IMG/VR virus record: IMGVR_UViG_3300006802_000518
Location: 1-24,909 of that record
From: a virus
Direction: 5' to 3' (one strand)
DNA length: 24,909 bases
Shown: positions 5,948 through 24,909 of the stretch, piece by piece
How the letters are laid out: each line of letters opens with the position of its first letter
How positions within the stretch are numbered: position 1 is the stretch's first letter
Notes under the pieces: model-generated
What the model was told of the DNA's origin: nothing
Seen by the model: only the letters and a program-made list of their open reading frames with translations
The model's database searches: none
Translations under genes and position numbers: made by a program

Positions 5948-8402
5948 ACAAGAAAAATATAGATTAGAATTTATAAACTGTGAAGGTGATACATGCCAAG
6001 TTCAATTTCATTTTGAAGGATGGACTGGCGGAGTAACTTATTTGACACCAGCTGCTAGACCATTTGTTTTATCTGAATATAATACTGACGAAAATTTATT
6101 TAAGGGTTATAGACCACAGCAAGCAACTATTAATATTGTTGCATCTGACTCATCGGTAACAATTGACAATTTTATTACTAATAGTGATGATGATATTTTA
6201 GTCATTTTTTCTTTTGGCTCCTTTTCATCCTATTGGTATGGGTATATATTACAAGATAATTTTCAAGAAACTTGGCTATCTACAAGTCATATTTTGACTT
6301 TGACTGCTACAGAAGGTGTAGGCCAATTGAGTGAAAAAGAATTTAGTGACGATGGGGTAGAAGTAGTTGGTAGAATAACGCCATGGGATGCAATAGGATA
6401 TTGCTTACAAGATACAGTGCAAAATTTGATTCAATCACGAGTTTATAATAGTTTATATCATTCATCAATGGATGATACAAACACAGATATGTGTTTAGAT
6501 CAGTGTTATTTAGATACAAGATCCTTTGTCATTGAACCAAGACAATATGAAAGCAAACTTGATGTATTAAATAAAATCAATACATCATTTTGTCAGACAA
6601 TGTTTCAGTATAAAGGCCAATGGTATTTTCTTCGTTTAGAAGATTTATATATTCCTACAAATCAAAATTTGCGAGGTTTTAGAAATCAAATAGGAGGAAC
6701 AAGAGCAACATCAAATAGAAGATACGATGCAAATATTGGAGTAAATGAAAGTATGAAGCCAATTACTCCAGAAATGCTTCGTTATATCATGCGCAGAACA
6801 AAGAAAGATATTGTTAGGCGTGAATATGAAATGTTTGCAGAATGTGTTCCAAATTCATCATTTACAAGAGGTGCATTACTAAGTGAAAATGCTTCACTTA
6901 GAGAATATACATTAGCTAACTGGACTTTTAATGAAGGTTCATTTAGTAGTCCAACCGTAGTAACAAGACCTTACGCGGTTGATGAATTGTTTATTGATAC
7001 AATACTAAGTGAAAGAAATGCATTTTTTAGACTTGGAAATACCAATCCAAGTTGGATTATATCAGAATATTGTTATGTAAGAATATTTGATACATTAAAC
7101 TTTTCATTTGATTATAAATATACTTATTTTCCTTCTGTTAATTATCCTCCAATCACAGTTCCAGTTAATATTTGGATTAATATAGCATATGTATTACTTG
7201 AAACTCCACTTGCTAATTATGTATTAGACTCAGATGGTCACTGGCATCAAGCAAGTGCAAACTTTGCTGGACTTCCTGAGGCTCCAGATTATAAAGTTGA
7301 TAATACAGCTATTCAATTTAATGTAAATGATGGAAAAGATGTATTTGCTGATCAGTGGAATACATTTAATATACAATCAGATCCAGTACCAAATGCTGGT
7401 AAATTGAGATTTGTATTTTATGGTTTAGATAAACAAGGTTATTTAGATAATCAAATTAATATCAAAAATTTTCAGTTTCAGACTATACCAATATTTAACG
7501 TTGATGAAAGACGATCAAATATTACTGGACATGAATTTTATTACGAAAAAGCAGATAATTTAAGAAACGTATCTGAGAATATGATACATCTTGAAGATAA
7601 CGTATCATATAATTTTAAGGGGACTTTATTTGAATCAGATGCTTTGACTTTAACAAACGCAGAATGGTTTAGATATAGATACAATACAGAAAGTTTCCCA
7701 TTCATTCAGGAGGCTTTGATTGCATATTGGGAACATAACAAGTTTAATAGAAATAAAATAGATGTAAATTGTTATGGCTTAAAGTTTAATAGTGGAGCTG
7801 ATCCAATTGGCCTTATAAACACATTTATTTTTGTTGACGATGATCCAGATAAAGTGTATTATGTTTTGAATATGCGTGAGATTGATTTTGATGCTGCTAC
7901 ATGGAGTGCAACTCTTATTGAGGTCTATGATACTCAAAAGGATCCTGGATCAAATATTACAAAGAACTTCCAAGCAGATGTCACTACTGGTACTTACTCA
8001 TCTACGACTTATGTACCATGGACGATTGTAAGTCCTGCTGACTTTACGCTTGGTGGCACATCAAATATCACATATAACGGTGCAAATACAATAAATGTTA
8101 ATATAACTTGTAATATATCTGGAGCCATAAATAGTGCAGGAGCTGCAAGTGTTGATTTTAAATTGGAGAAAAATGGCACGGCTATTAATACACAAACTGT
8201 ATATATAAATAATAGTCCAGAATATTTTAATGTAGATTTGAGTACAAGTGGCATTACTTTAAATAATGGAGATATTTTGACTGTTTGGATGGATACAAAT
8301 ATTTATTCAATTGATTTAACTGGAGGCTCTATGAGTTTTAGTTATGTAACAAATACTGCACAAGTTTTTGATACTTATGTAGATAGATATTTAACAAATT
8401 AA
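5940..8402 (+). CDS. Large tail tip / baseplate protein
   Basis: 820 residues starting with TTG at 5940, overlapping the tape measure stop by 8 nt; no in-frame ATG is found for the next ~150 residues, so TTG is preferred. The first ~130 residues look like a distal-tail or hub-type beta domain ('FHFEGWTGGVTYL', then 'DDDILVIFSFGSF' and 'WYGYILQDNF'). The middle contains Trp/Tyr-rich beta segments, and the last ~130 residues form a beta-sandwich-like Ser/Thr/Asn-rich domain. The position right after the tape measure is that of Dit/Tal-type tip proteins, which nucleate tube assembly and hold the fibres. I cannot assign it to a named family with certainty. Confidence 0.65.
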   Translation: MAKQEKYRLEFINCEGDTCQVQFHFEGWTGGVTYLTPAARPFVLSEYNTDENLFKGYRPQQATINIVASDSSVTIDNFITNSDDDILVIFSFGSFSSYWYGYILQDNFQETWLSTSHILTLTATEGVGQLSEKEFSDDGVEVVGRITPWDAIGYCLQDTVQNLIQSRVYNSLYHSSMDDTNTDMCLDQCYLDTRSFVIEPRQYESKLDVLNKINTSFCQTMFQYKGQWYFLRLEDLYIPTNQNLRGFRNQIGGTRATSNRRYDANIGVNESMKPITPEMLRYIMRRTKKDIVRREYEMFAECVPNSSFTRGALLSENASLREYTLANWTFNEGSFSSPTVVTRPYAVDELFIDTILSERNAFFRLGNTNPSWIISEYCYVRIFDTLNFSFDYKYTYFPSVNYPPITVPVNIWINIAYVLLETPLANYVLDSDGHWHQASANFAGLPEAPDYKVDNTAIQFNVNDGKDVFADQWNTFNIQSDPVPNAGKLRFVFYGLDKQGYLDNQINIKNFQFQTIPIFNVDERRSNITGHEFYYEKADNLRNVSENMIHLEDNVSYNFKGTLFESDALTLTNAEWFRYRYNTESFPFIQEALIAYWEHNKFNRNKIDVNCYGLKFNSGADPIGLINTFIFVDDDPDKVYYVLNMREIDFDAATWSATLIEVYDTQKDPGSNITKNFQADVTTGTYSSTTYVPWTIVSPADFTLGGTSNITYNGANTINVNITCNISGAINSAGAASVDFKLEKNGTAINTQTVYINNSPEYFNVDLSTSGITLNNGDILTVWMDTNIYSIDLTGGSMSFSYVTNTAQVFDTYVDRYLTN

Positions 8403-10840: not shown

Positions 10841-13800
10841 ATGCCAAATTTATTAAAGTTAAAAAGAGGTACTGCCGCAACAATTCCAGTTGGATCTGCT
10901 GCCGAGCCTTTATTCACAACGGACACATACGATCTTTATATTGGTAAAGGGAATGGAAGCAATCAACGCTTTCAAAAGTATATTGCGAGTGGTACATCTT
11001 CGCAGTTCATAAAAGGTGATGGATCGCTTGATAGCACATCTTACCAAACGGCACTTACTTTTAGTTCGCCTTTGGTGAATACAAGTGGTACAATTAGCAT
11101 CCCAGCCGCTACTGGTAGTGTGAATGGATATTTAACAAGTACCGATTGGACAACTTTTAATAGCAAAGAGCCAGCCATCACTGCTGGCACTTCTTTACAA
11201 TATTATAGAGGCGATAAAACCTTCCAAACGCTCAATACAAGTGTAGTGCCAGAGAGTGGTGCTATTTATTTTACAGAGCCTAGGGTTCTTGCAACGGTAC
11301 TAACTGGACTTAACTTAAGTGGTGGTGGTACAATTGCTGCGACTGATAGCGTGTTAACTGCATTTGGTAAGATTCAAAACCAAATTAGTGGCATCGCTGG
11401 TGGGGTATCTTATCAGACAACTTGGAACGCAAGTACAAATACTCCTACTCTTACATCAAGTGTAGGTACAAAAGGGTATTATTACGTTGTAAGTGTGGCT
11501 GGTTCTACTAACTTGAACGGCATCACCGATTGGAAAGTAGGTGACTGGGCAATCTTTAATGGTACAACGTGGGATAAAGTTGATAATACAGACGCCGTAA
11601 GCTCTGTGAACGGATTTACTGGTGCGGTGAATCTTGGACTTGGTGATATTAGCAACGTAACTTTAACGAGTCCGACAAATGGGCAATTATTGCAGTTCAA
11701 TGGCACATCAAGTAAATGGGTGAATTGGACACCAACTTATATAAGTGGCAACCAGACAATAACATTGAGTGGAGATGTGAGTGGTAGTGGAGCAACTGCA
11801 ATCACTACAACTATTGGAGCTTTAAAGGTTACTAATGCCATGCTTGCTGGTACTATTGACTATGCAAAGATGGATGCTACAACCGTTCCAACTTGGAATC
11901 AAAACACAACTGGAAGCGCAGCAACTCTTACAACTGCTCGCACATTAACAATAGGCGCAACTGGCAAAACATTTAACGGATCGGCTAACGTATCGTGGAG
12001 CTTGGCAGAGATTGGTGCATTTGCCAATCCAATGACTACGCTTGGCGATATTATATATGGTGGTGCTTCTGGTGCAGCAACAAGACTTGCTGGAAATACA
12101 GTAGCTTCAAAAAGATTTTTAATACAGACTGGCGATGGTACTAATAGTGCTGCTCCTTCTTGGGGTTCAATTGCTGCTTCTGATGTACCTACACTCAATC
12201 AAAACACAACTGGAAGTGCCGCTACGTTAACAACTGCAAGAAATTTCACAATCAATGGTACTGCAAAGTCTTTTGATGGCTCAGCTAACGTAAGCTGGAC
12301 TGCTGCTGAGATTGGACTTACATCTTACCTTCCTTTATCTGGCGGTACTCTTACTGGCGCATTAAGCGGAACGAGTGCTACGTTTAGTACAGAAGTTACA
12401 AGTTCTGGAAGTCAAGGTAGATTTGGTGGATGGGCAACTGGTGCTGGATATCAAGGTGCTGCTTTAGAAGCTGGTGTATCTGGTGGAACTGCAACATTAC
12501 TTGGTTATAATAGGACAACAAGTGCATATATACCATTAACAATTGGAGGTAACACAAATCAAACAACAACAATAGGAGGAAATACTATTGTTTTACAAAA
12601 TAATGGTGTTACTGCATTATCAATTGCCTCAACTGGCGCAGCTACGTTTAGTTCGAGTGTGACGGCTGGGGGACAAATCAAAACAACATATACATCTACT
12701 GACGCTTCTTTATCAAGTGATTCAGGAGCTGGTTTAAATTTAGTTGGTAGTAGTGGGGTAAGATTAAATTTTGGAACTCTTGCAGGTTCACCATATCATT
12801 CATGGGTACAAGCAAGTAATGGTTCTGGAACTGCTTACGGAATTTTATTAAATCCATTAGGCGGCAACGTCGGCATCGGGACTACTTTGCCATTAGGGCC
12901 AATTCATGCAGTTAATGGTTCAAACTATTCTGCACCAGCTACAACTGGAAATTCAATTGGTCATGCAATATTTGGTAAATTAACAGATAGTGGAATTGCA
13001 ATTGGTAGTTATCGTGGTTCTGGTACAAGTGGTTATACATGGTTTCAAGCACAAATATTAGATGCTGCACAATACAATAATAATATAGTATTTCAACCCA
13101 ATGGCGGCAATGTCGGCATCGGGACTACTTCGCCGAGTGCATTATTACATGTAGCAAAAGGTAGTTCAGGAGAAGTAGCAAGATTCTCTGCTCCAAATGC
13201 ATATGTTCCTTATATTATAATTGGCAGACCTGATGTAGCAACAGAAGGTATGAAGCTAACTTATGATTCTAATAATGGTGATACAAGTTTTGAAACAGTT
13301 GCCGCTCATAATATGTTATTTAAAAATAACAATACCGAACGCATGCGCATCACGAGTGGGGGGAATGTATTAATTGGTACTACAACTTCCGCAGGTGCAG
13401 CAATTTCGCTTCAAGCTACATCAAGTGCTTATTCTATTTGGTCAATAAATGATGCAACTGCAAACTATTCTCAATTCTATTTTGGTGGAACGGCATCATC
13501 AGGTTATCAATTTATTCGTTCTGATGGAAGAAGTGGCGGATGGATATCATTAGGCACACAAGATACCGAACGCATGCGCATCACGAGTGGGGGGAATGTC
13601 GGAATCGGGACTACTTCGCCGAGTAATAAATTAGAAGTTGTAATAAGTTCTGGCACGTATAATACTTTATTCCATAATAGTTCTACATCAACTTCTGAAT
13701 ATAATGCTATAAGAATTACACAAGGTGCATCAGGTTCTGCAACTGTATACTTGGGAACTGGTGGAAGTGCAACTGCTAATACTGCATTTAGAAATACATT

Positions 13801-14221
13801 TGTTGTTGGTACACAATCAAATAATGATTTTGTATTAAATACAAATGATACCGAACGCATGAGAATAACTTCTGGGGGAGAACTTCTCATCAACACCACA
13901 ACAGATAGCGGAGCGTATTACTTGCAAGTAAATGGTTCAGTCTATGCCACTGCTTATTACGAATCATCTGACATCAGACTTAAAAATGTTCTTACAAACT
14001 CATATAGCGAGAACTTTAGCGCAATCGAGTTCATGTGGAAAGACAAAAGAGATGAGAAAAAGCATTGGGGATATGCAGCCCAAGATGTACTTAAATACAT
14101 CCCAGATGCAATCGAGATGAATAACGATGGCATGATGACCGTAAACTACAATGAGGCGCATACTTGGAAGATAGCGCAACTTGAGAAGGAAATCCTTGAA
14201 TTAAAAGCAAAGATTAAATAA
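10841..14221 (+). CDS. Long tail fibre with C-terminal S74 self-cleaving chaperone domain
   Basis: 1126 residues. The N-terminus carries a '[20 protein letters not shown]' segment common at fibre starts, then beta repeats. A duplicated module begins '[15 protein letters not shown]' at residues 353 and 453. Repeats of '[10 protein letters not shown]' type begin near 674, 755 and 919, and 'ERMRITSGG' begins at 833, 910 and 1005. The last 84 residues are an intramolecular chaperone (Peptidase_S74) with the catalytic Ser-Lys pair in S1043-D-I-R-L-K1048, then '[17 protein letters not shown]', and a terminal helix. In this family the domain drives trimer folding and then cuts itself off before the Ser, here between S1042 and S1043 (predicted). 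The gene's stop overlaps the next ATG by one base. Confidence 0.85.
11897..12216 (+). repeat. Direct repeat pair within the fibre gene (300-nt period)
   Basis: A 20-nt sequence starting AATCAAAACACAACTGG is identical at 11897-11916 and 12197-12216. It belongs to a protein repeat of about 45 residues separated by exactly 100 residues. The copies diverge at synonymous positions around the identical core. Confidence 0.75.
12860..13624 (+). repeat. Repeats coding NVGIGTT(SPS) motifs
   Basis: Three copies: 12860-12887, 13103-13138 and 13595-13624. The core GTCGGCATCGGGACTACTT is identical in the first two, and CGCCGAGT follows in the second and third. The copies are clearly more GC-rich than the AT-rich sequence between them. 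Confidence 0.8.
13332..13599 (+). repeat. Perfect 37-nt direct repeat coding ERMRITSGG
   Basis: Identical 37-nt copies at 13332-13368 and 13563-13599 contain the core CGAACGCATGCGCATCACGA. A third, shorter copy (GATACCGAACGCATG) is at 13847-13861, after which the codons diverge although the protein motif is kept. Confidence 0.8.
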
Positions 14222-15123: not shown

Positions 15124-15494
15124 TGAGAATAAATAGGTCATTAATAACAAACTTTGATCAAGACTTAAATGCAAGTAATTTAATATTTGCTTATGAGTCT
15201 AAAACGGCTAATTTCACAATTACCGAGACCAATGGCCTAATCACATATCTCGTAAATGCAACATCAGGAGCTATTACAGTCACGCTACCAACGGCGGCTG
15301 ATAATGGCTCTTATTTTATTATAAAAAAGACCGATGTTACCGCAAACGCAGTTACAATAGATGCTTATAGCAGTGAAACAATAGACAACTCTACCACTAT
15401 TGCTTTATATGATCAATATAATTACATAGCAATAGTGAGTAATGGAGTGAATTGGGTAGTAGTAGATGAATTTAGAAATGAAATTTGGACATGA
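15123..15494 (+). CDS. Small beta-rich structural protein
   Basis: 123 residues. The region from about residue 30 follows a pattern seen in virion and fibre accessory domains: 'TNGLITYLVNATSGAITVTL', 'PTAADNGSYFIIKKTD', 'AVTIDAY', 'QYNYIAIVSNGVNWVVV'. This alternation of short strands and turns suggests a compact beta-sandwich or beta-helix capping module. It probably forms part of the fibre or tail tip. It overlaps both neighbours (1 nt upstream, ATGA downstream), linking the structural genes with the endolysin in one transcript. No enzymatic motif seen. Confidence 0.55.
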   Translation: MRINRSLITNFDQDLNASNLIFAYESKTANFTITETNGLITYLVNATSGAITVTLPTAADNGSYFIIKKTDVTANAVTIDAYSSETIDNSTTIALYDQYNYIAIVSNGVNWVVVDEFRNEIWT

Positions 15495-16087
15495 TCACGC
15501 AAAAATTACGCTTAAAAATACCATCAAAAGTTCTCGATGAATTGCCAAGCGTGATTGATACGTTTAAGATCAACTCTATTAATAAGCTATCAAATTTCCT
15601 TGCACAGTGTGCGCATGAGTCAGGTAACTTTAAATTTGTTACCGAGAATCTCAATTATAGCGCAGAAGGACTGCTAAAAATATTCCCAAAATACTTCTCC
15701 AAAGAAACGGCGGAGATAGCGGCTAGAAAGCCAGAGATGATAGCAAATATTGTCTATTCTAACCGTATGGGTAATGGTGACAAGGCAAGTGGAGATGGAT
15801 GGAAGTATAGAGGCAGAGGTTACATCCAATTGACTGGTAAAGTAAATTATTCCCAATTTGGGAACTTTATCGGAGTTGATTTATTAAAAGACCCAGATTT
15901 AGTAGTTAGCAAATATGCACTTACGTCTGCTGCCTGGTTTTTTGAATATAAGAATTTGTGGCTTTTGGCCGATAGAGGAATTGATGATGAAACCATTAAG
16001 CACTTAACCAGACGAATCAACGGAGGACACAATGGCCTTGAAGATCGCATATCTAAAACAAAAACTTTCAATTCACTATTATGCTAA
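15491..16087 (+). CDS. Endolysin, glycoside hydrolase family 19 (chitinase-like muramidase)
   Basis: 198 residues. The start is ATG 15491, in an ATGA overlap with the preceding stop; an in-frame TTG two codons earlier is less likely. GH19 features are the catalytic Glu in 'AHESGNF' (E43), the second acidic position in 'TENLNYSA' (E52), the family signature 'GDGWKYRGRGYIQLTG' at 101-116, and 'RRINGG' at 174-179. Phage GH19 enzymes cut the glycan strand of peptidoglycan. No signal peptide is seen, so export depends on a holin. It is followed by a predicted spanin (7-nt overlap), which supports a lysis role. Confidence 0.9.
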   Translation: MITQKLRLKIPSKVLDELPSVIDTFKINSINKLSNFLAQCAHESGNFKFVTENLNYSAEGLLKIFPKYFSKETAEIAARKPEMIANIVYSNRMGNGDKASGDGWKYRGRGYIQLTGKVNYSQFGNFIGVDLLKDPDLVVSKYALTSAAWFFEYKNLWLLADRGIDDETIKHLTRRINGGHNGLEDRISKTKTFNSLLC

Positions 16088-22211: not shown

Positions 22212-24719
22212 ATGAACTATTTAGAACTTGGACTCAACTGTATTGCCGTTAATGAAAATAAAAGGGCGATTTTCCCTTGGAAAGACTACCAAAGCAGAAT
22301 GATAACAAAGGCGGAGTTTGACATGCAGATGTCAGACCCAAAGACGAAAGGAGTCGCTGTGATTTGTGGATCTGTGAGTGGAGGACTTGAAGTAATTGAC
22401 ATTGACACTAAATACCAGACATATGACTTATGGGAGAAAATTAAGACGAGATTACTTGAAGGAATATATGCTAAACTACATATCGTCAAGACTCGAAATG
22501 GAGGATATCATTTATACTATAGATGCGAGGTGGTTGAAGGCAACACTAAGCTTGCTAACAGACCAGCAAGTGCAGAAGAAATTAAAGCAAATCCACACCT
22601 TAAGGCTCTCACAATCATTGAAACAAGAGGTGAAGCTGGCTATGTCGTTGCTCCGCCTACAGAAGGTTATGAAGTCATCCAGACAAGTGGTATACCAGTG
22701 CTTAGTGTCGAGGAAAGGGAACATCTCATGGAAGTTATGCGATCGTTCAACGAAGTGGTCGAGGAAGAGATCGTTGAAGCAGCGCATCGACCTTCACCAA
22801 AAGAGTACGGCATCTCGCCGTTCGATGAATACAACCAAAGAGGCGACATTGAAGCATTACTTACGAAACACGGCTGGAAAAAAGTGGGTAACGGCGGGGC
22901 GAGGGCTTACTATCTACGGCCAGGTGGGACATCATCCCATAGCGGGTCATATAATATGGAGATGGGGTTGTTCTCGGTCTTCAGCACAAACACTCCCTTC
23001 AAAGTTGGCAAAGGCTATCGACCAGCCTCCGTATATGCTATCTTAGAATGCAATGGTGATTTAAAGGCGGCGGCTCGGAAGTTGCTGGATGAAGGATATG
23101 GTGAGCGGAAGGGATTGAGCAGAGTTGACGCCGATTTGGTAAAGATGAAAGTAGAAGGGATTACCAATGAGGATTTGGTAAATTATTTGATCAATAGGAA
23201 AGATTACACAAAAGAGGAGGCTCACCTCAAGGTAAAGGAACTAAAAAAAAACTACGGTCCCGATTTGCGAACGTTCTGGGACGTTAAGTTTAAGAACAAA
23301 GAAGTCATACCCTCTATAAACCGTTATAAGCTACAAAAATTCCTCTCTGAGGTCGGAGGGTATAAATTATACTTCTATGACAATAACAGCCAAATTTATA
23401 GGCTTATACGCGTTAAGGATGGGTTTGTGGAAGAGAGTTCGAGTGAACATATTAAAAAGTTCATAAAGGGATATATTGATAGGTTGGATTCGAGTTTGGT
23501 GGATGGTGTTTCGCAGGAGAGTTTGCTTGAGTTGATATACCAAGGCAGTTCGATTTTATTCTCGGATGCTTTTTTTGAGTTTTTTGATCGGGCTGAGTTA
23601 AACTTTTTAAGTGATACAAAGAATGCTGCTTACTTTCCGTTTAAGAATGGAGTGGTAGAAGTTAAACAAGATGGAGTGAGGTTAAGGTCGTATGGTGAAA
23701 TGGACTCTGTTATTTGGAAGTCCCAGGTTATAGATCACCATATAGTTTTGGAGTCGGATCTTGACATGGATAAGGTAGAATATTGGAGGTTTTTGAAGTT
23801 TATAAGTGGTGAAGATGATGAGCGTCTTGTTTATGCTTGTGGACTGATTGGGTATTTGTTGCATAAGTACAAAGACCCAGCTCGGCCGTTTTCGGTGATA
23901 CTTTGCGAAGAGACTGAGAATGAAGCCAAAGGTGGCGGGACTGGTAAGGGCATTTTCGTGAAGGCTTTATCGTTTTTGAACAATACTGTGCGAGTGGATG
24001 GCAAGAACTTTAAGATTGATAAGAACTTTGCTTTTCAGAGGGTTGATTTGGATACGAGGATCTTGGCTATTGAGGATACGAGGAAGAACGTGGATTTCGA
24101 GGGATTTTATGCGATTATAACGGAAGGTATCACTGTAGAGAAGAAAAACAAGGACGAGCTGTTTATACCTTATAAGGATTCGCCTAAAGTGATGTTTACT
24201 ACAAATTATACGTTGCCTTCGAGTGGTAACCATGCTAAAAGGAGGCAGAAGGTGTTGGAGTTCGCACCATATTTTGGGCTTGATAAGACACCTGAGGATG
24301 AGTTTGGACATAAGCTATTTGACGATTGGGATAAGGATGAGTGGAATAGGTTTTATAATATGATGTTTGAGTGTGTCAGAGATTACCTGGAGAATGGGGT
24401 TATGGAGATGGAGAAATCAGACAAGCTGATTAGAAAGCAGATCAAAGTTCAGTTCGGGGAAGAGTTTTTGGAGTACCTGGTTGGGGTGCTGGAAGAGGGG
24501 GATGAAAATTGGATTTCTCAGGAGCAATTATACAACGATTTTTTGGCGATGGCAGGGTTCGAAAAGAAGGATTATTCGGTGAAGCGATTTTCAAAAGCAG
24601 TGGAAGAATCGTGTACCCTGATGGAAATATCGTGTACCCAGAAGAGAGAAAAGGCGTCCCAAAATCGAAAAGTTTACAAGTTTAGTAAGATAAAAGTAGA
24701 TGATGTTGAATTGTTCTAA
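22212..24719 (+). CDS. Primase-helicase: Prim-Pol domain plus SF3 helicase
   Basis: 835 residues. The N-terminal Prim-Pol (archaeo-eukaryotic primase) has motif I 'LEVIDIDT' (D63, D65), motif II 'RNGGYHLYYR' (H100) and motif III 'IIETRGEAGYVVAPP' (E137). A middle domain at about 195-305 ('YYLRPGGTSSHSG', 'FSVFSTNTPF', 'GYRPASVYAILECNGD') is typical of mobile-element primases. The SF3/D5-like helicase has Walker A 'GGGTGKG' (574-580), Walker B 'LAIED' (618-622) and sensor 'VMFTTNY' (660-666). A C-terminal helical region may be a winged helix. It lays primers and unwinds DNA to start replication. The iteron array lies just after the stop. Inverted iteron-like copies lie within its last 115 bases. 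Confidence 0.9.
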   Translation: MNYLELGLNCIAVNENKRAIFPWKDYQSRMITKAEFDMQMSDPKTKGVAVICGSVSGGLEVIDIDTKYQTYDLWEKIKTRLLEGIYAKLHIVKTRNGGYHLYYRCEVVEGNTKLANRPASAEEIKANPHLKALTIIETRGEAGYVVAPPTEGYEVIQTSGIPVLSVEEREHLMEVMRSFNEVVEEEIVEAAHRPSPKEYGISPFDEYNQRGDIEALLTKHGWKKVGNGGARAYYLRPGGTSSHSGSYNMEMGLFSVFSTNTPFKVGKGYRPASVYAILECNGDLKAAARKLLDEGYGERKGLSRVDADLVKMKVEGITNEDLVNYLINRKDYTKEEAHLKVKELKKNYGPDLRTFWDVKFKNKEVIPSINRYKLQKFLSEVGGYKLYFYDNNSQIYRLIRVKDGFVEESSSEHIKKFIKGYIDRLDSSLVDGVSQESLLELIYQGSSILFSDAFFEFFDRAELNFLSDTKNAAYFPFKNGVVEVKQDGVRLRSYGEMDSVIWKSQVIDHHIVLESDLDMDKVEYWRFLKFISGEDDERLVYACGLIGYLLHKYKDPARPFSVILCEETENEAKGGGTGKGIFVKALSFLNNTVRVDGKNFKIDKNFAFQRVDLDTRILAIEDTRKNVDFEGFYAIITEGITVEKKNKDELFIPYKDSPKVMFTTNYTLPSSGNHAKRRQKVLEFAPYFGLDKTPEDEFGHKLFDDWDKDEWNRFYNMMFECVRDYLENGVMEMEKSDKLIRKQIKVQFGEEFLEYLVGVLEEGDENWISQEQLYNDFLAMAGFEKKDYSVKRFSKAVEESCTLMEISCTQKREKASQNRKVYKFSKIKVDDVELF
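24606..24639. repeat. Two inverted iteron-like copies at the 3' end of the primase gene
   Basis: ATCGTGTACCC occurs at 24608-24618 and 24629-24639, 21 nt apart. Its reverse complement, GGGTACACGAT, differs by one base from the iteron GGTACGCGAT found downstream. The copies are in coding sequence and point opposite to the main array. Confidence 0.55.
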
Positions 24720-24746
24720 AGGTTTTTGTTGGACTTTGGGGTTTTT

Positions 24747-24853
24747 GGTACGCGATTTTTGGGTTTGGTACGCGATTTTTCGAAAAAGTACGCGATTTGG
24801 TACGCGATTTGTCGTTGATAATCAACGCGGTACGCGATGGACGCGATTTTTTT
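24747..24853. repeat. Iteron-like array, candidate replication origin
   Basis: Direct copies of GGTACGCGATTT start at 24747, 24767, 24787 (first base A), 24799 and 24829 (ending GATGG). A shortened copy, GGACGCGATTTTTTT, starts at 24839. Starts are spaced 20, 20, 12, 30 and about 10 nt. Copies 2 and 3 are joined by a perfect palindrome TTTTTCGAAAAA (24776-24787). The array follows the primase-helicase gene, as expected for an initiator-bound origin, with T-runs that could melt easily. Other uses (operator array, packaging or partition site) are possible. Confidence 0.7.
24813..24827. repeat. 15-nt palindrome inside the iteron array
   Basis: CGTTGAT-A-ATCAACG is a perfect 7-bp inverted repeat around a single A, between iteron copies 4 and 5. 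It could be a binding site for a dimeric protein or a cruciform. Confidence 0.6.
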
Positions 24854-24861
24854 CTACTTTT

Positions 24862-24909
24862 ATGTATGAGAAAAAAAATACAAATGAATCTGTGGGGGGA
24901 GGTAGAAAC
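24862..24909 (+). CDS. Possible start of a gene truncated by the window end
   Basis: After the iteron array an ATG at 24862 opens a frame (MYEKKNTNESVGGG...) and a second ATG at 24866 opens another (MRKKIQMNLWGEVE...); both run to the window end. The sequence is too short to choose between them, and neither product is recognised. The GGGGGGAGG at about 24894-24902 could also be the ribosome site of a gene starting just outside. Treat as a weak call. Confidence 0.3.
   Translation, partial: MYEKKNTNESVGGGRN

Follow-up and report, generated by a model that had tools for sequence, protein, structure and literature searches.

An iteron-bearing repeat module at the end of a Prim-Pol/D5-type helicase gene as the probable replication origin of Bacteroidota tailed phages

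The repeats at and behind the end of the primase-helicase gene described here are observed far above chance, and they are probably the replication origin of the phage, bound by its own Prim-Pol/D5-type helicase, where the binding and the origin activity are what we infer. The window, i.e. the whole stretch of DNA that was analysed, is a metagenomic phage contig, a linear IMG/VR record of 24,909 bases ending within the repeat feature, and the virus is a tailed phage whose host group is Bacteroidota bacteria. The contig breaks off at 24909, within the central part of a larger dyad, and the window therefore lacks the inverted right arm; the right-arm pair lies beyond its end and is visible in the relative L004 at 6361-6385. 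The features are the following.

22212..24719, plus strand: gene of 835 aa with Prim-Pol (AEP), D5-type SF3 helicase and C-terminal winged helix
24420..24686, plus strand: codons of the winged-helix domain (residues ~737-825, from structure models)
24579-24620, plus strand: codons of the recognition helix, residues 790-803 (predicted secondary structure)
24608..24617, minus strand: in-gene inverted unit A, GGTACACGAT, codons 799-802, last turn of the recognition helix
24629..24638, minus strand: in-gene inverted unit B, GGTACACGAT, codons 806-809, start of the first wing strand
24747..24756, plus strand: array unit 1, GGTACGCGAT
24767..24776, plus strand: array unit 2, GGTACGCGAT
24776..24787, no strand: 12-bp palindrome TTTTTCGAAAAA, conserved in close relatives only
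24787..24796, plus strand: array unit 3, AGTACGCGAT
24799..24808, plus strand: array unit 4, GGTACGCGAT
24813..24827, no strand: 15-nt palindrome CGTTGATAATCAACG with the core TTGATNATCAA, conserved family-wide
24829..24838, plus strand: left-arm unit 1 of the dyad, GGTACGCGAT
24839..24848, plus strand: left-arm unit 2 of the dyad, shortened, GGACGCGATT, 10 nt after left-arm unit 1
24849..24864, plus strand: T-run and CTACTTTTA, inner stem sequence of the left arm
24894..24909, plus strand: G-run and AGGTAGAAAC, where the right half of the dyad begins
L004:6612-7013, further downstream, past the end of the window: gene for a stand-alone DnaA domain IV

Seven one-mismatch matches to GGTACGCGAT occur in the 24,909 bases searched, against 0.32 expected, all of them within 24608-24838, and none of 100 shuffled windows attained that number. 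Thus, as in iteron origins, several short direct repeats of one word stand at the initiator gene, above chance. The five units and one shortened unit of the preliminary description are present, all on the plus strand downstream of the primase gene, and so are its 12-bp palindrome joining copies 2 and 3, its 15-nt palindrome between copies 4 and 5, and its two reverse copies 21 nt apart inside the primase gene. The exact 20-nt spacing that it gave for the first three units (24747, 24767, 24787) holds in the window but is confined to close relatives, as is the TTTTTCGAAAAA palindrome; widely conserved instead are the TTGATNATCAA palindrome and, after it, a tandem pair with ~10-nt spacing.

A scan with the primase protein yielded 71 related loci in viral contigs, with more added by alignment and distant-member scans, and about 50 lineages were compared for the module. 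Its order begins with two inverted units within the last 80-130 coding bases of the primase-helicase gene, and continues after the stop with direct units, TTGATNATCAA, two units ~10 nt apart, a T-run, a centre and an inverted pair. The centre measures about 65 bp and has a mean A+T of 68%. It contains a run of at least four G in 27 lineages out of 39, against an expectation of 6.3. Position and layout are retained in relatives down to ~44% primase identity, and the array adjoins the Prim-Pol/SF3 gene with the same architecture even where the word is a different one, which was the conservation that the earlier reading called for. The repeat words, by lineage, are GTACGCGAT, GTACACGAT, GTACGTGAT, TAACATCAT, TGTAGTCCAT/TGTAGCGCA and TTGCGCGAT, with TGTACCACTT, TGTTCCACTT, ACCACTT, GACTTGAT, GGAACCGAT and others in further lineages. 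Extension of the array into coding sequence, previously taken as unusual, turns out to be a regular part of the module, the reverse copies occupying the same protein columns in most lineages.

In many lineages the tandem pair, the centre and the inverted pair together make a large imperfect dyad, and clear right arms start 83-105 bp after the left pair. Its folding beats that of shuffled sequence in L004, L005, L051, L030 and L060 (z -2.2 to -4.1) and is weak in L012 (z -1.6), L016 (-1.1) and L052 (+0.6); in some lineages, e.g. the TGTAGTCCAT types, L023 and L038, either the right arm or a copy inside the gene is weak or missing altogether. L061 and L062 carry the module in the opposite orientation with respect to the primase gene and the flanking genes, as is permitted for an origin. 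L004 equals the window over 6,300 bp, with zero differences up to base 24852, and extends beyond the window end. From window position 24853, right after the left iteron pair, L004 diverges abruptly; the split is either a recombination joint at the origin centre or an assembly join.

The array, the in-gene copies and the right arm change together, lineage by lineage. When the word was taken solely from the DNA behind the gene and its inverted form compared with the gene end, the in-gene copies differed from the lineage's own word by a mean of 1.53 mismatches and from other lineages' words by 2.70 (32 lineages; 0/10,000 permutations). A repeat on 17 other lineages gave 1.35 versus 2.42 mismatches (again 0/10,000), whereas the effect in forward orientation was much weaker (228/10,000). 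Likewise, the match of the right arm was better to the left arm of its own lineage (9.1) than to those of other lineages (7.1; 40 lineages, 0/10,000 permutations). All these permutations swap lineages, by which shared ancestry is removed incompletely. T-runs made the comparison of array and gene end by raw shared k-mers too noisy, and word-based tests were used instead.

Inside the gene, the copies of most lineages fall on window residues 798-799 and 805-806, independently of the word. Unit B reads I-S-C-T in the clade of the window and I-A-Y-L, with either L or Q as the final residue, in L012, L030 and L047; that nearly one word is thus read in different frames at the same columns indicates that the DNA is constrained and not the peptide. 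Synonymous codons within the copies were invariant in two subgroups (9/9 informative codons versus 92/190 outside; p ~0.02 each), to be read with the caveat that synonymous variation falls towards the gene end generally. Across lineages, coding sequence is apparently constrained to an origin word at the in-gene copies.

The proposed initiator matches Prim-Pol (2e-12) and DUF5906 (1.2e-7) in Pfam. An AlphaFold2 model of residues 401-835 (pLDDT 84, pTM 0.81) places a winged helix at its end, with wing strands predicted at residues 807-813 and 819-825. The best PDB match of this model is the SaPI5 primase-helicase 7ola (E 5.7e-13, 421 columns), and the next matches are other D5-type primase-helicases. 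An earlier model of residues 501-835 had been poor outside the winged helix, with weak structure matches, and was improved by a deeper alignment; a profile search with the sequence of the final 335 residues gave no match in the PDB. With the helicase core controlled, the distance between words correlates with that between winged helices (partial Mantel r 0.30, p 0.001). This correlation owes part to the in-gene copies themselves, the wing without them giving a partial Mantel r of 0.16 (p 0.013). The word thus coevolves with the DNA-binding domain of the initiator, if weakly for the recognition helix alone (r 0.16, p 0.046), whose residues are much alike across lineages with quite different words.

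A second candidate reader is encoded close by. A DnaA domain IV protein of ~130 aa lies downstream of the module in most relatives (Pfam Bac_DnaA_C 9.5e-15 in L004), its gene starting ~130-570 bp past the primase stop in most of them; a similar gene is annotated in the cultured Olleya phage Harreka_1. It could be argued that the repeats are divergent DnaA boxes to which this stand-alone protein binds, serving as initiator or co-initiator, the more so as it follows the module so regularly, retains the DHTTV motif of DnaA and matches solved DnaA proteins. We nevertheless consider this very unlikely, as the word varies with the winged helix and not with the DnaA-domain-IV protein next to it: with the helicase core controlled, the partial Mantel for word against DnaA_C is -0.14 (p 0.97), and against its HTH -0.18 (p 0.99). 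Moreover, one word is found with DnaA_C proteins only 23-30% identical, DnaA_C switches within a word class, and in one subgroup the primase and upstream genes differ between word classes while DnaA_C has been exchanged. The recognition motif of DnaA_C is conserved although the words differ, and no adjacent DnaA_C was found in L052, L056, L057 and L060-L062, which all bear the module. Canonical DnaA boxes (TTWTNCACA) are mostly absent from the module: 5 were matched across 21 kb of module DNA, and most lineages have none. The oriC/DnaA-box class of origins was likewise set aside, the clustered DnaA boxes that define it being missing here.

Three further readings were considered. The repeats might be operators of a phage regulator at a promoter for the downstream dnaA-like and late genes, with no role in replication. 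The module does sit between the replication genes and the dnaA-like/terminase genes, TAnnTTT-like sequences follow the left pair in 18 of 39 lineages (12.5 expected), and L037 and L040 carry an inverted unit at the start of the dnaA-like gene. Yet the Bacteroidota promoter consensus is not clearly enriched (exact TAnnTTTG in 2/39 lineages, 1.6 expected), the module of L061 and L062 runs against the flanking genes, and an operator of a downstream promoter has no need of copies held in primase coding sequence, which lie ~90-110 nt ahead of the stop. Furthermore, an operator found at many loci had been named as what would speak against an origin, and all matches in the window lie at this one site, with at most one stray match outside the module in the nearest relatives. 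We regard the operator reading as unlikely. Even less credit, indeed hardly any, is due to a packaging site (cos/pac) read by the small terminase subunit, notwithstanding that the module lies upstream of the terminase genes and that the window contig ends inside it: in L004 ~2.8 kb and several genes separate the module from the putative small terminase, contigs pass through the module in most relatives, and units are found inside the primase gene. Nor does the terminase vary with the word: between two word classes, fixed differences number 0/381 in the large terminase and 31/832 in the primase, and 8 of these 31 fall in the last 30 residues of the primase. In the remaining reading, after the example of the plasmid pRN1, the initiator would recognise the folded stem-loop and not the repeat sequence, the words being stem material only. 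Several lineages do fold the dyad better than shuffled sequence, the arms covary, and pRN1 origins retain structure, not sequence (PMC4234260). Against this, the same words recur away from the dyad, both in the direct array and within the gene, and folding is weak in L012, L016 and L052, which makes it improbable to much the same degree as the reading by DnaA_C.

Two of the three tests set for the iteron-origin interpretation were passed and support it. GC skew is positive nearly throughout six contigs (one of them a complete genome), with no sign change at the site, and is for that reason uninformative.

In the origin reading that we prefer, the origin would be the segment from ~24606 to beyond the contig end, and we infer direct binding, origin activity, the loading of a double hexamer and a bending role of TTGATNATCAA. 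The C-terminal winged helix of the helicase would bind the ~10-bp iterons, the in-gene inverted units and the direct array serving to gather initiator protein, and TTGATNATCAA may be a site for a host bending protein. The iteron pairs in the dyad arms, facing each other across the T-rich, often G-run-containing centre, would position two helicase hexamers, which could then melt the centre, prime there and launch forks in both directions.

To our knowledge, origins have been described for few of the many phages with Prim-Pol/D5-type initiators, and in the open-access literature we found no earlier description for phage DnaA-domain or Bacteroidota phage origins. The nearest comparison is pRN1, whose ORF904 has its domains arranged in the same order and depends on a stem-loop of ~100 bp immediately behind its gene; the origin diverges in sequence while its structure is kept, and it is functional when moved (PMC4234260). 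As in pRN1, Prim-Pol, SF3 and winged helix are joined in one protein here, and a large dyad stands just downstream whose structure is kept as its sequence changes, albeit weak or absent in some lineages. However, pRN1 is said to be without iterons, with its recognised motif stated as unidentified, and a pRN1-type origin has been proposed for the phages BIP-1/BPP-1 (PMC4234260). Here, unlike in pRN1, the dyad arms are built from iterons and are joined by an extra array, in-gene units and a conserved palindrome; given these iterons, we do not file the module as a plain pRN1-type origin.

Other systems share the repeats. In SaPI Rep and SCCmec Cch2, the C-terminal domain binds short repeats directly downstream of its own gene (PMC7581432). 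The phage protein, by its predicted structure, likewise has a D5-type (self-loading) SF3 helicase fold and a C-terminal DNA-binding domain, with repeats directly downstream of the helicase gene. It differs in bearing a Prim-Pol domain and in belonging to a Bacteroidota tailed phage, and neither in-gene copies nor paired dyad arms, both seen here, are described for SaPI Rep and Cch2 in the passages of that source considered here (PMC7581432). The alpha protein of phage P4 (ori/crr) is also a primase-helicase whose C-terminal winged helix binds origin repeats, according to a summary (PMC4234260). P4 alpha differs, having a TOPRIM primase and another repeat layout. Lambda has its iterons midway along gene O, and the O protein is no helicase. 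In lambda and lambdoid origins the iterons lie within the coding sequence of gene O, beside an AT-rich tract (PMC7466680), whereas just two inverted units lie in the gene here, at DNA-binding-domain codons. The lambdoid class, with iterons and AT-rich tract wholly inside the gene, was rejected, as the rest of the module follows the stop. For PLE RepA, the DNA-binding domain and the origin iterons covary between variants as a module (PMC8263062), but this protein is of the RepA_N family, its iterons are semi-palindromic and ~30 bp long, and PLE is a satellite, not a phage. If the module is an origin of this kind, as is most likely, what is new in it is that a pRN1-like dyad and P4/SaPI-like iterons come together with sites inside the gene, where the DNA-binding domain of the reader is encoded. 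The comparison of about 50 lineages reveals how the module is laid out, what its unit is and which protein is the likely reader; the more than ten words that occur naturally are a ready set for working out how winged helices of this kind recognise DNA and how the specificity of an origin shifts.

A bolder proposal, which we find possible but would not yet call probable, is that of a doubly coded origin, in which the surface with which the initiator reads DNA, formed by the last part of the recognition helix together with the first wing strand, is encoded by a stretch that is at the same time a pair of binding sites for the initiator. Reader and sites would then have to change together, so that origin specificity could jump as one linked unit, while the site would act as a recombination joint across which the downstream half, including the dnaA-like gene, is freely exchanged.

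Beyond these lineages, the cultured phages BT-TP2 and Leef_1, as well as MW202828, showed no array following the helicase gene, and by the test of copy number against shuffles L088, L090, L091 and L093 have no clear array. Behind the distant helicase gene of L089, L094, L095 and L096, arrays of other words reach 10-13 copies (at most 6 in shuffles); these are bacterial assemblies, mostly of Bacteroidota including Mariniflexile sp., and their short words are unrelated and stand in both orientations. The layout may thus be general in Bacteroidota mobile elements.

Several minor observations concern the module's surroundings and the rest of the genome. Between the right arm of the dyad and the dnaA-like gene, a tract of GTTTTTGG-type repeats on one strand occurs at L004:6392-6500 and L006:8760-8916, and also in L012, L021 and L125; it possibly forms a G-quadruplex. 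G010, the contig of L025 (34,791 bases), carries a 99-bp direct terminal repeat and is therefore probably the complete genome of a relative. In the window, 15485-16087 encodes a protein with a Chitinase class I (GH19) domain, a probable endolysin. The large tail-region protein encoded at 10841-14221 contains an Mtd_N domain, which in the tropism determinant of the Bordetella phage forms the N-terminal part.
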